47,960 nucleotides of DNA, from the NCBI GenBank assembly GCA_902568875.1, contig CACFSG010000004.1, positions 22,501 to 70,460 on the forward strand, read 5' to 3'. Under the pieces are notes generated by a model that saw nothing but the letters and a program-made list of their open reading frames with translations, was not told the origin of the DNA and did no database searches. Shown here one piece after another: positions 34,388-37,996 of the stretch (position 1 is its first letter; each line of letters starts with the position of its first letter). The stretch is from an uncultured Pelagibacteraceae bacterium. Lineage in GTDB: Bacteria; Pseudomonadota; Alphaproteobacteria; Pelagibacterales; Pelagibacteraceae. Both the position numbers and the translations under genes were made by a program.

Positions 34388-34681
34388 TTGGCTATTGTAA
34401 AATCAGAGCTTATCAAACAAATAAAAAAATCTTATCCAAATTTTCTTACTCGCGATCTAAGTAAATTAATAGATATAATTCTTAACGAGATTAAAAATAG
34501 TTTAAAAAGAGGTGAGGGTGTTGAATTAAGAGGATTTGGAACATTTCGTACAAATATTCAAAAAGAATCAATAAGGAGAAACCCAAAAACTGGAGCAAAA
34601 GTTAATGTTCCCAAAAAAAGAACAATCAAATGGAAAATGTCTAAAGACTTGTTTAAAAAGTTAAATAATGAAAAAGAATAA
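34388..34681 (+). CDS. ihfB: integration host factor beta subunit / HU-family protein
   Basis: The 97-residue DNA-bending protein has the HU/IHF fold signature: KSELIKQI at the start, GEGVELRGFGTF (about residues 43-54) and RNPKTGAKVNVP with the intercalating proline arm (about 63-74). Position after rpsA identifies it as IHF-beta rather than HU. The start is TTG at 34388; no ATG lies in a suitable place. It overlaps pyrF by 14 nt. Confidence 0.9.
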   Translation: MAIVKSELIKQIKKSYPNFLTRDLSKLIDIILNEIKNSLKRGEGVELRGFGTFRTNIQKESIRRNPKTGAKVNVPKKRTIKWKMSKDLFKKLNNEKE

Positions 34682-35342
34682 AATATTTGTTGCTTGTGAC
34701 AGTACTAAAATCTCTAAAGTAAAACAAATAATCAAACAAACAAAAAATTCTAAAATAAAAGTTGGTTATAAATTTGGATTAGAGTTTTTAAATTCAAAAA
34801 ATGGTAGAAATTTTTTATCTAAATTAAAAAATAAGACAACTTTTGCCGATCTAAAACTTAACGATATACCAAATACATGTGTATCAACAATAAAGGCAAT
34901 AAAAGATTTAAAAGTAAACTATTTAACCATTCATATAAATTCTGGATTAGAGACTTTAAAAGCTTGTAAAAAAGTTTCGGGTAAAACTAAATTAATTGGA
35001 GTAACAGTTTTAACATCTCTAGATAATAAGGCATTAAAAGAAATTGGTTTCAATAAAAATGTAAAAAAATTAGTGTTACATCAAGCTAGATTGGCTAACA
35101 AAGCGAAGTTAGATGCTTTAGTATGTAGTGCACAGGAAGTAAATATAGTTAAAAAAGTATTTAATAAAGAAATAATTACACCAGGAATTAGATTTAATTC
35201 TAAAGTTAATGATCAAAAAAGAGTTTTAACTCCTAAACAAGCTTATAAAAATGGAAGTGACTGGCTTGTTATAGGAAGACCTATAACTAAAGGTAACATC
35301 AAAAAAAATATTCAAACATTAATTGATCATCTAAATCAATGA
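34668..35342 (+). CDS. pyrF: orotidine 5'-phosphate decarboxylase
   Basis: PyrF performs the last step of UMP synthesis. The 224-residue TIM barrel retains the catalytic Lys-Asp set in FADLKLNDIPNT (about residues 54-65), TIHINSG with the conserved His, GVTVLTSL, TPGIRF and the phosphate-binding WLVIGRPIT. It diverges more than usual at its N-terminus (CDSTK in place of ALDV) but active-site residues are complete. It lies between ihfB and trpF with overlaps on both sides. Confidence 0.92.
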   Translation: MKKNKIFVACDSTKISKVKQIIKQTKNSKIKVGYKFGLEFLNSKNGRNFLSKLKNKTTFADLKLNDIPNTCVSTIKAIKDLKVNYLTIHINSGLETLKACKKVSGKTKLIGVTVLTSLDNKALKEIGFNKNVKKLVLHQARLANKAKLDALVCSAQEVNIVKKVFNKEIITPGIRFNSKVNDQKRVLTPKQAYKNGSDWLVIGRPITKGNIKKNIQTLIDHLNQ

Positions 35343-35968
35343 TCCTTAAATCTAAGATCTGTGGAATCTTTGATTCTAAAACCTTAAGTTATTTGGTTAA
35401 TCACAAACACCCTCCACAATTTGTAGGGTTTATTGTAAATTATCCAAAATCAAATAGATATGTTGATAAAAAAAAACTTAAAGAACTATTAAAAATAGAT
35501 AAAAAAAAATCTTTGTATGTCGCAGTTTTAGTAAACCCTGATCAAAATATACTTGAAGAAATTAAAGATTTACCTTTTGACTATTATCAACTTTACAATT
35601 GTGATCCTAATAAAATTCAATCTATAAAAAATAAATATAATAAAAAGATTATAACAGCACTAACTATTGAAAAAACTGAAGATGTTAAAGAATACAAGCT
35701 ATTTAAAAATGTTACTGATATTTATTTATTTGATAGCAAAGGATATGAAAAAAGCGTGTCTTTTAATCATTCATTGATTAAAAATATTAAGTTAGACAAA
35801 GAAGTGATGCTAGCAGGCAATATTCAAATCAATGATAATCTTGAAAATTTTAAAAAAATAGCAGATATTATTGATATATCTGGAGGATTAGAAACTTCTG
35901 GATTAAAAGATATTTCCAAAATAGAAATTTTCTTAAACAAGATTAAAAATTTAAACGATGAAGCTTAA
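35339..35968 (+). CDS. trpF: phosphoribosylanthranilate isomerase-like protein (divergent TrpF)
   Basis: TrpF isomerises phosphoribosylanthranilate in tryptophan synthesis. The 209-residue barrel keeps the general acid/base pair: Cys8 in KICG and Asp132 in YLFDS. It also keeps Arg40 in PKSNRYV. However, the usual QLHG is QLYN (Tyr86 for the substrate-side His) and the phosphate loop GG(S/T)G is replaced by GYEKS (135-139); AGG becomes AGN. The gene overlaps pyrF by 4 nt and trpB by 11 nt. Position says trpF; substrate may have shifted. Confidence 0.75.
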   Translation: MILKSKICGIFDSKTLSYLVNHKHPPQFVGFIVNYPKSNRYVDKKKLKELLKIDKKKSLYVAVLVNPDQNILEEIKDLPFDYYQLYNCDPNKIQSIKNKYNKKIITALTIEKTEDVKEYKLFKNVTDIYLFDSKGYEKSVSFNHSLIKNIKLDKEVMLAGNIQINDNLENFKKIADIIDISGGLETSGLKDISKIEIFLNKIKNLNDEA

Positions 35969-37193
35969 AAAAAATATTCCTTTAATAGATCAACATGACA
36001 AACATGGATTTTGGGGTGGTAAATTTGGTGGATCTTACATACCTGAAACATTGCGGAAACCTATAGATGATTTAACAATAAAATTTGAAAAACTGAGAAA
36101 AGATAAAAAATTTTTAGCTGAAAGGGATTATTATTACAATAATTGGGTTCATAATGGCCCTACTCCTTTTATTAAGTTAAATAATTTAACTAATCATTTA
36201 GGTGGCGCTCAAATATATGCCAAGGTTGTTTCTGCTGCTCGTGGTGGTGCGCATAAAATTTACGGAGCAATCACTGCTGCAATGCTTTGTAAAAAAATGA
36301 ATAAACGATATCTCGTGACCGACACGGGGGCCGGTTATAATGGTAAAATGTTTTCCATTGCTGCTAAACATTTTGGTTTAAAATGCAAAGTATTTATGGG
36401 GTTTCGAGACGTTCAGCGTCAAAAGCCGAATGTGGATGCGATGATAAAAAATGGTGCTGAGGTTGTGCCTGTTTATACGGGTAGTCAGACTTTGGTTGAT
36501 GCTGTCTCTGAGGTGATGAGATATTGGGTAGCCAATCATGAGAAAGTTCATTTAGGAGTCGGATCAACAGTTTCTGCAAAAATTTTCGTCAAGATTTGTG
36601 GTTGGTCTACTGCACAAATTTCTAGAGAATTGAAAAAACAAATGATTGATGAATTTGGTAAAATTCCAAAGAAGGTTAAACTTTTAAATTGTGTTGGAGG
36701 CGGCTCGTCAGCTTATGGCTTATGGAGTGAGTTTATGGATTATGATAAAAGACAGATCAGTTTCGAAGGGATAGAAGCAGGTGGTCCAAAAAATTCAAAA
36801 AAACATGCTGCTCCTTTAAGTAATAATTCTAAAATAGGTGTTCTTCATGGTGCCGCTCAAATGGTTTGCCAAGATAAATTTGGACAAATTTCAGAAACAG
36901 AATCAATAAGTGCTGGTTTAGATTATCCTGGTGTCTCACCTCTCCATTGTTTTTTAAAAGAAACTGGAAGAGCAAATTATGTTTCCCAAACTGATGAGGA
37001 TGCACTCAATGCATATAAATTAATTAGAAAACTAGAGAGCAAAATTAATCCTTCGCTCGAACCTTCGCACGCATTCGCTCGCGCAATTTCAATTGCTCCT
37101 AAACTTAGTAAAGATACTATTATAATAGTGAATAGTTGTGGGGACGCTTTAAAAGACAAACATATAATTAAAAAAAGATTAGGTAAATATTAA
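35958..37193 (+). CDS. trpB: tryptophan synthase beta-like PLP enzyme (divergent TrpB)
   Basis: TrpB joins indole and serine using PLP. The 411-residue protein has the fold and many family blocks (FWGGKFGGSYIPE, SISAGLDYPGVSP, LEPSHAFA) and the PLP lysine Lys100 in GGAHK. The active site differs: KREDLNH before the lysine is KVVSAAR (89-95); the catalytic Glu109 of the Salmonella enzyme is Asp122; GAGQHG is GAGYNG (124-129); GGGSN is GGGSS (247-251); the C-terminal LSGRGDKD is SCGDALKD (393-400). The middle (36290-36560) is about 43% G+C against about 25% nearby. It lies between trpF and trpA; a changed acceptor or substrate is possible. Confidence 0.78.
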   Translation: MKLKKNIPLIDQHDKHGFWGGKFGGSYIPETLRKPIDDLTIKFEKLRKDKKFLAERDYYYNNWVHNGPTPFIKLNNLTNHLGGAQIYAKVVSAARGGAHKIYGAITAAMLCKKMNKRYLVTDTGAGYNGKMFSIAAKHFGLKCKVFMGFRDVQRQKPNVDAMIKNGAEVVPVYTGSQTLVDAVSEVMRYWVANHEKVHLGVGSTVSAKIFVKICGWSTAQISRELKKQMIDEFGKIPKKVKLLNCVGGGSSAYGLWSEFMDYDKRQISFEGIEAGGPKNSKKHAAPLSNNSKIGVLHGAAQMVCQDKFGQISETESISAGLDYPGVSPLHCFLKETGRANYVSQTDEDALNAYKLIRKLESKINPSLEPSHAFARAISIAPKLSKDTIIIVNSCGDALKDKHIIKKRLGKY

Positions 37194-37996
37194 TGACTGC
37201 TTCTTTGATCAGCCAAGCATTTAAAAAATGTAAAAAAGAAGGAAGACCTGCTCTATTAACTTATACTGTCGCTGGGGATCCCACTAAAAAAATATCATTA
37301 GATATATTAAAATCTATATCAAAAAATATAGATATCATAGAGTCTGGTATGGCATTCTCAACTCCCATTGCAGATGGGGGAGATATTCAAACATCAGCTC
37401 ACCGAGCAATCAAAGCTGGAATTAATCTTAATGAAACATTTAAAATCGTAAAAAAATTTAAAAAAATAGAATATTCAAAACCAGTAATTTTAATGGGTTA
37501 TTGGAATTTAATTTTACAATTTAATGAAAATAAATTTATTAAGATGTGTAAAAAAACAGGTGTTTCTGGTTTAATTATTGTAGATCTCCCTCATCCAGAA
37601 AATAAAACTTTTGCAAAAAAATGTAAGAAAAATGGAATTACATTTGTACAACTTTTAAGTCCAACCACATCTAAACAAAGAATGAAACAGATAATCAAAG
37701 ATAGTCATAATATGATCTATTATATTTCTCAAAGTAATACGACTGGTGGAAAATTAAAAGTTTCTCCTAGAAAAATATTAGAGGAATATTCAAAAATAAA
37801 AAAACTGAATAATAGTAAAAATGTGGTTATTGGATTCGGTATTACAGAGAAAACTATAAAATCATTAAAAAAAGCCGATGGATTAGTTGTTGGAAGTGCA
37901 ATTTGTAAGGAAATAACTAATTCTATAAAAAAAAGACAAAATATAGTCACAAATGTTACTAATGTAGTTAAAAGATTAAAAAATAAAATTAGATGA
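37193..37996 (+). CDS. trpA: tryptophan synthase alpha-like protein
   Basis: TrpA splits indole-3-glycerol phosphate and passes indole to TrpB. The 267-residue barrel keeps both catalytic acids, Glu50 (IIESG) and Asp61 (PIADG), and the phosphate site GFGI and VVGSAI. Differences from the usual sequence are FSTP for FSDP (Thr57), ADGG for ADGP, and SQSNTTGG for the S-x-x-G-V-T-G loop. It overlaps trpB by 1 nt and accD by 4 nt. Catalysis looks possible; the altered loops face the TrpB partner, which is itself divergent. Confidence 0.82.
   Translation: MTASLISQAFKKCKKEGRPALLTYTVAGDPTKKISLDILKSISKNIDIIESGMAFSTPIADGGDIQTSAHRAIKAGINLNETFKIVKKFKKIEYSKPVILMGYWNLILQFNENKFIKMCKKTGVSGLIIVDLPHPENKTFAKKCKKNGITFVQLLSPTTSKQRMKQIIKDSHNMIYYISQSNTTGGKLKVSPRKILEEYSKIKKLNNSKNVVIGFGITEKTIKSLKKADGLVVGSAICKEITNSIKKRQNIVTNVTNVVKRLKNKIR

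Follow-up and report, generated by a model that had tools for sequence, protein, structure and literature searches.

The probable tryptophan synthase locus of the window

The window, that is the whole stretch of 47,960 nucleotides analysed here, carries three tryptophan genes one after the other on the forward strand:

35339..35968, + strand: trpF, overlapping the start of trpB (PF00697, 79.4 bits, cut-off 22.7)
35958..37193, + strand: trpB, type B1, with a rewritten active site, 411 aa (open reading frame call and translation; TIGR00263, 355.8 bits, cut-off 392.45)
37193..37996, + strand: trpA, rewritten together with trpB (TIGR00262, 204.7 bits, cut-off 102.35)

The trpB open reading frame has 411 codons and no internal stop, and it overlaps the reading frames of both trpF and trpA; the intact frame, the tightly overlapping neighbours and the normal trpB position given in a preliminary description of this DNA are thus confirmed. 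The same description held the gene to be under selection. Pairwise dN/dS of trpB ranges from 0.018 to 0.083 with a median of 0.047 (116 close B1 pairs, which are non-independent), indicating strong purifying selection; median values, also from non-independent pairs, are 0.066 for trpA (42 pairs) and 0.061 for accD (104 pairs). The 15 matching loci that carry names, at 70-95% identity, all belong to Pelagibacteraceae or Pelagibacterales records, which places the window in the marine SAR11 group. In one relative (G276:C9:24142-25291) trpB is present as two overlapping pieces in different frames, owing to a frameshift or to an assembly error.

TrpF of the window is diverged too, because the best NCBIfam TrpF model gives 109.4 of 216 and none reaches its cut-off; the Pfam PRAI cut-off is passed. 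At three loci, L150 (G124), L154 (G311) and L164 (G228), no trpF was detected beside trpB with the window queries, and the gene may be absent or too diverged there. The gene pyrF lies at window 34668-35342; of 64 copies of it, 56 contain the motif DxKxxDIP and 8 lack it.

According to NCBIfam scores, the window protein is a relative of TrpB, as first described, nearest to TrpB proper and far from TrpB2. It obtains 355.8 bits with the TrpB1 model, below the curated cut-off; 96.6 bits with the TrpB2 model TIGR01415, of which it is only a distant homolog (cut-off 518.85); and 366.6 of 819 bits with the bifunctional TrpF-TrpB model. Relatives of the same type sometimes pass the TIGR00263 cut-off, for example G066 at 403.5 bits. 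A scan of the order found a TrpB-family match in 274 of 297 genomes (143 of the 150 high-quality ones), and the TIGR00263 cut-off is passed by 87 of the 297, all types included; the top scores, 633-649 bits, are those of G039, G127 and G134, which have ordinary motifs in all three cases. A resurrected TrpB of the PDB aligns with residues 21-406 at E 1.5e-94. The engineered tyrosine synthase TmTyrS1 (PDB 8egy), likewise a TrpB whose active site is altered, is matched at E 7e-70; it differs in being laboratory-made. An AlphaFold2 model of the window TrpB, built on an alignment of 13 rows, has a mean pLDDT of 50.6.

That the TrpB of SAR11 is an outlier is already in print since 2008: in the part of PMC2395257 available to us, SAR11/Pelagibacter trpB forms a third group of the tree, apart from TrpB1 and TrpB2. 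The window locus has the gene order that this Sargasso Sea paper gives for P. ubique, which has a single trpB copy; however, active-site residues, TrpA and several types exchanged at one site are not discussed in that part of the paper. In the open-access literature, as far as its texts were available, no description of rewritten residues, of a co-change in TrpA or of a type swap was found.

Active-site residues of TrpB and changes in TrpA

TrpB is a textbook example of a conserved enzyme, and its active site is normally near-constant. Translation and alignments show that every motif quoted in the preliminary description is present in the window protein, and that the PLP lysine, Lys100, is retained. 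The positions below were located by alignment; equivalents follow Salmonella numbering.

36222..36242, + strand: KVVSAAR, residues 89-95, replacing a KREDLNH-like motif
36255..36257, + strand: Lys100, the PLP lysine position (Salmonella Lys87), Lys in every readable row
36321..36344, + strand: DTGAGYNG, Asp122-Gly129, replacing ETGAGQHG
36417..36419, + strand: Arg154, equivalent of Arg141, kept
36495..36497, + strand: Val180, equivalent of Lys167, changing jointly with TrpA position 56
36696..36710, + strand: GGGSS, residues 247-251, with Ser251 for Asn236
36921..36923, + strand: Asp322, equivalent of Asp305, kept
37134..37157, + strand: SCGDALKD, residues 393-400, replacing LSGRGDKD, with Asp for Arg379

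The equivalent of Glu109 is Asp122, that of Gln114 is Tyr127 and that of His115 is Asn128, within or next to GAGYNG (residues 124-129). The C-terminal motif had been listed as a whole among the changes, and this stands in part: its unusual features are R379D, G380A and the replacement of D381, but Cys in place of Ser377 is nothing out of the ordinary, being found in 24 of 25 canonical alphaproteobacterial loci.

A canonical set of 29 TrpBs was composed of E. coli, three Pelagibacterales and 25 alphaproteobacterial loci outside the order, the latter being the best matches to the window protein itself and not a survey. Across this set 125 positions are invariant; 63 of them are kept in all 82 B1 rows (some of which are near-copies) and 41 are never kept, and at 19 of these 41 B1 carries one fixed new residue. 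The 25 outside loci have the ordinary TrpB motifs nearly letter for letter, and the rewritten type occurs in none of these best 25 loci outside Pelagibacterales. The rewriting is shared by most of the relatives analysed. Since the replacements are fixed among those of the same type, whose TrpBs mostly show 64-75% identity, and since dN/dS is low, the rewriting is more than chance. In summary, the window protein resembles canonical TrpB1 of E. coli and Salmonella in its full-length alignment, its PLP lysine, the Arg141-Asp305 pair and an operon partner TrpA that has its catalytic residues; it differs in scoring below the family cut-off, in having Asp122 for the catalytic Glu109 and in the 41 invariant positions never kept.

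In the portion of PMC9512447 at our disposal, beta Glu109 activates N1 of indole and is called essential for that, Gln114 contacts Asn145 and Arg148 when the enzyme is closed, and the closing salt bridge is that of Arg141-Asp305. Type B retains the catalytic carboxylate in a shorter form, as Asp, and in altered surroundings. The E109D substitution, in work by Brzovic from 1992, reportedly alters substrate specificity and activity. Given this effect and the role of Glu109, as far as it is covered by that portion of the source, Asp122 should be costly unless it is compensated.

The partner subunit is changed as well. TrpA of the window keeps Glu50, Asp61 and Thr184 (equivalent to Glu49, Asp60 and Thr183), and Thr57 replaces Asp56; across readable rows Glu49 and Thr183 are always present and position 60 is Asp or Glu. 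In Salmonella, alpha Asp56 and beta Lys167 form a salt bridge. These two positions covary, with Lys accompanied by Asp or Glu in 11 of 11 readable pairs and Val or Leu by Thr, Ala or Cys in 89 of 89, the rows representing about four lineages and hence few independent events. To judge from these alignments, TrpA is co-rewritten with TrpB while its catalytic residues are kept, a point absent from the preliminary description.

Tryptophan pathway and function of the enzyme

A second canonical trpB, suggested from the start as a thing to look for, was found neither in the draft genome of the window (66.6% complete) nor in 61 relatives, where the extra matches are all at or below 148 bits. The earlier gene trpC is present in 44 of the 61 relatives and in 16 of the 18 high-quality ones, trpD in 41 of 61 and in 16 of 18, and trpC also in 16 of 16 further chosen genomes. 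One of these, the single-contig genome G190, has trpC as two overlapping pieces in different frames (G190:C1:930231-930997).

A point against a working synthase is that in the draft genome of the window (66.6% complete) neither trpC nor trpD was matched, and the trpE family only weakly; G029 and G047, two of the 18 high-quality genomes, likewise gave no trpC, no trpD and only a weaker trpE-family match, and kept a type-B trpB. According to the part of PMC2395257 available to us, trpE-G-D-C is one unit in P. ubique, so that a single gap in the assembly, covering these linked genes, would explain the missing trpC and trpD; loss of the early pathway would also fit these three genomes.

A TrpB2-like gene is present in 4 of the 61 relatives (G020, G023, G024, G045), and also in G203, G232, G251, G269, G274 and G311. 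These genes obtain about 140-152 bits with TIGR00263, over profile positions 49-380, and mostly accompany a trpB in the ordinary position; in G020 and G024, both incomplete genomes, the TrpB2-like gene stands alone. TrpB2 as the real tryptophan synthase was considered and rejected as a general answer, because of its matches in only 4 of the 61 relatives.

Two genomes of type B1, G066 and G067, are those which we take to be HTCC1062 and HTCC7211, respectively. In the sections of PMC5069961 available to us, HTCC1062 cultures received 10 uM glycine, glycine betaine, pyruvate, DMSP and vitamins, and glycine is the only amino acid named for the medium, the salts table being outside these sections. 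Through the presumed identity of G066, growth of HTCC1062 without added tryptophan supports a working type-B1 synthase, within what these sections give. Moreover, the single trpB copy of HTCC1062 is argued to be functional of necessity in the available part of PMC2395257.

Most likely, the window trpB encodes the beta subunit of the tryptophan synthase of the cell, with a rewritten active site, and its type is among five or more types of trpBA that would replace each other as a pair. A working tryptophan synthase is likely because no second ordinary TrpB was seen in the 61 relatives and trpC is usually present. Support from the sequence includes the full-length TrpB alignment, the PLP lysine, the carboxylate at 109, the Arg141-Asp305 pair and a TrpA with Glu49, Asp60 and Thr183. 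In such an enzyme TrpA would split indole-glycerol phosphate and pass the indole to TrpB, where Lys100-PLP would convert serine into aminoacrylate; Asp122 would substitute for Glu109 in indole activation, and Tyr127, Asn128, Ser251 and the altered C-terminal loop may reshape the pocket around the shorter carboxylate.

The preliminary description had instead suggested a different substrate. In that case the product would be some other amino acid, with a different nucleophile in place of indole or a different beta-leaving amino acid in place of serine; the exchange of Glu109 for Asp, together with a carboxylate loop, indole-side residues and a C-terminal loop that are all changed and fixed, could be read in this way, and the title of the Brzovic work of 1992 on E109D speaks of altered substrate specificity. 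We regard this as improbable, since none of the 61 relatives has a second ordinary TrpB to make tryptophan, TrpB2-like genes occur in only four of them, the TrpA catalytic residues are kept, trpC is usually present and HTCC1062, if it is G066, grows without added tryptophan as far as the available sections on its medium go. The suggestion of a different substrate is thus not supported; a very altered mechanism, the other possibility named in the preliminary description, may still apply. Another alternative is a pseudoenzyme like the plant TSB-like proteins, in which TrpB makes no tryptophan and activates TrpA to release indole. Plant TSB-like proteins are changed at the same Glu109 position in the part of PMC12727527 that was available, and a TrpA with its catalytic residues would suit this role too; they have, however, mostly Ala at 109 and Glu at 305, and are paralogs beside an active TSB, whereas the window TrpB has Asp at both positions and no ordinary TrpB paralog was found beside this type in the 61 relatives, which makes this alternative very improbable.

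Types of trpBA and their apparent exchange at one locus

By their active-site residues, the trpBA pairs of SAR11 fall into at least five deep types (canonical A, B, C, D and E), with differing active-site solutions. Sorting 104 TrpBs by active-site strings gave 88 of type B (77 B1, 9 B2, one B3 and one B4), 5 of type C, 4 of type E, 3 each of canonical A and D, and one untyped fragment; these proteins were chosen partly for high or low score, so that the counts are not frequencies. In the readable rows, position 109 of type B is always Asp, with Arg141 and Asp305 retained; type C retains Glu109, but its position 305 is Gln or Thr and its position 116 Tyr or Phe; in type D, 141 is Leu and 305 is Asn; in type E, 141 is Lys and 114 is Met. 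The differences between types fall at catalytic and interface positions and are constant within a type. In the TrpB tree, a quick tree with long-branch warnings, C, D, E and B2 each form one branch.

An outside origin of the types was considered and rejected. In 385 genomes of the class, the best identities outside the order among the matches listed are 44% for the window protein, 52% for C and 39% for E, the C and E searches having been run with strict E limits and a rare donor being possible. Base composition gives no sign of foreign DNA in trpB, whose mean GC is 33.9 (B1), 35.9 (C), 35.1 (D) and 35.4 (E), while accD in these genomes has 33.5-35.0, and none of 28 pattern matches among viral contigs encodes a relative. 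From the trees, type B would have arisen within Pelagibacterales.

The types are apparently swapped as an alpha-beta pair inside similar flanks, and the trees suggest that this would occur by recombination in the shared flanks. For example, the window and G012 are 81% identical in rpsA, 83% in accD and 71% in folC, but only 36% in TrpB and 28% in TrpA. G017 and G009 share a mean of 91% over the flanks and 78% in trpF, against 27% in TrpB; at the DNA level their identity is 85-93% over pyrF and most of trpF, 43-54% over trpBA and 90-95% over accD. In the pair G251 and G074 the corresponding values are 78-86% for pyrF, already 60-70% for trpF, 48-57% for trpBA and 89-98% for accD. The reverse case is given by G061 and G193, with flanks at 38%, TrpB at 83% and TrpA at 69%. 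Window positions 35958-37996 compared with L166 (G240) show 94% in trpB and 79% in trpA, rpsA, accD and pyrF being at 47-52%; from this comparison, parts of trpB may also be exchanged inside the trpBA pair.

On a flank tree of 63 rows, itself a quick tree with long-branch warnings built from genes that recombine too, the 5 C rows require 5 changes, the 4 E rows 4 and the 5 B2 rows 5, the same as with shuffled labels. B1 is more clustered than shuffled, with 11 changes against a shuffled mean of 17.2, and all labels together require 16 where shuffled labels need 19.6 on average, a value as low being reached in 0 of 200 shuffles. As a control, we took pairs of genomes with at least four other genes at 75% identity or more. 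Both trpB and trpA are two-peaked in these pairs: for each gene 40 of 145 close pairs lie at 20-40% identity, and the 40-60% bin holds no pair for trpB and one for trpA. The genes rpsA, accD, ihfB and folC each have at most 3 pairs under 60%; pyrF ranges from 33% upwards, 155 of its 269 pairs lying under 60%, and trpF is spread out, 77 of its 296 pairs falling below the same value. Replacement of this depth is therefore no peculiarity of trpBA; it is only deepest and sharpest there.

These data bear on whether the types differ in function at all. Their diversity could be a neutral by-product of the genome-wide recombination and fast evolution of SAR11, the types being functionally alike, and to our judgement the chances that this is so are evenly balanced. 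Recombination in SAR11 is genome-wide and its divergent genes are a random sample of functions, according to the available part of PMC12374537; moreover, pyrF is very variable among close relatives and the type labels are clustered on the flank tree. The sharp two-peaked pattern of trpB and trpA, set against the four stable genes of the control, and the constancy within each type of the differences at catalytic and interface positions do not fit this explanation well. More tentatively, and with less likelihood, the types could form a balanced polymorphism, in which deep trpBA types circulate and are swapped as a unit because they are functionally different, type B being a natural Asp109 tryptophan synthase.

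If the types do form a balanced polymorphism, they may differ in escape from inhibitors of tryptophan synthase, or in the donor or indole analogue that they accept, and type B would activate indole in its own way. If the last step of tryptophan synthesis runs with its key Glu as Asp, and with the other solutions found in the other types, the locus would be a clear example of two core enzyme genes exchanged together at a single site, and SAR11 would offer natural co-evolved sets for testing how far an active site can be rebuilt; the same sets would probe the limits of alpha-beta coupling and may provide new starting points for biocatalysis.
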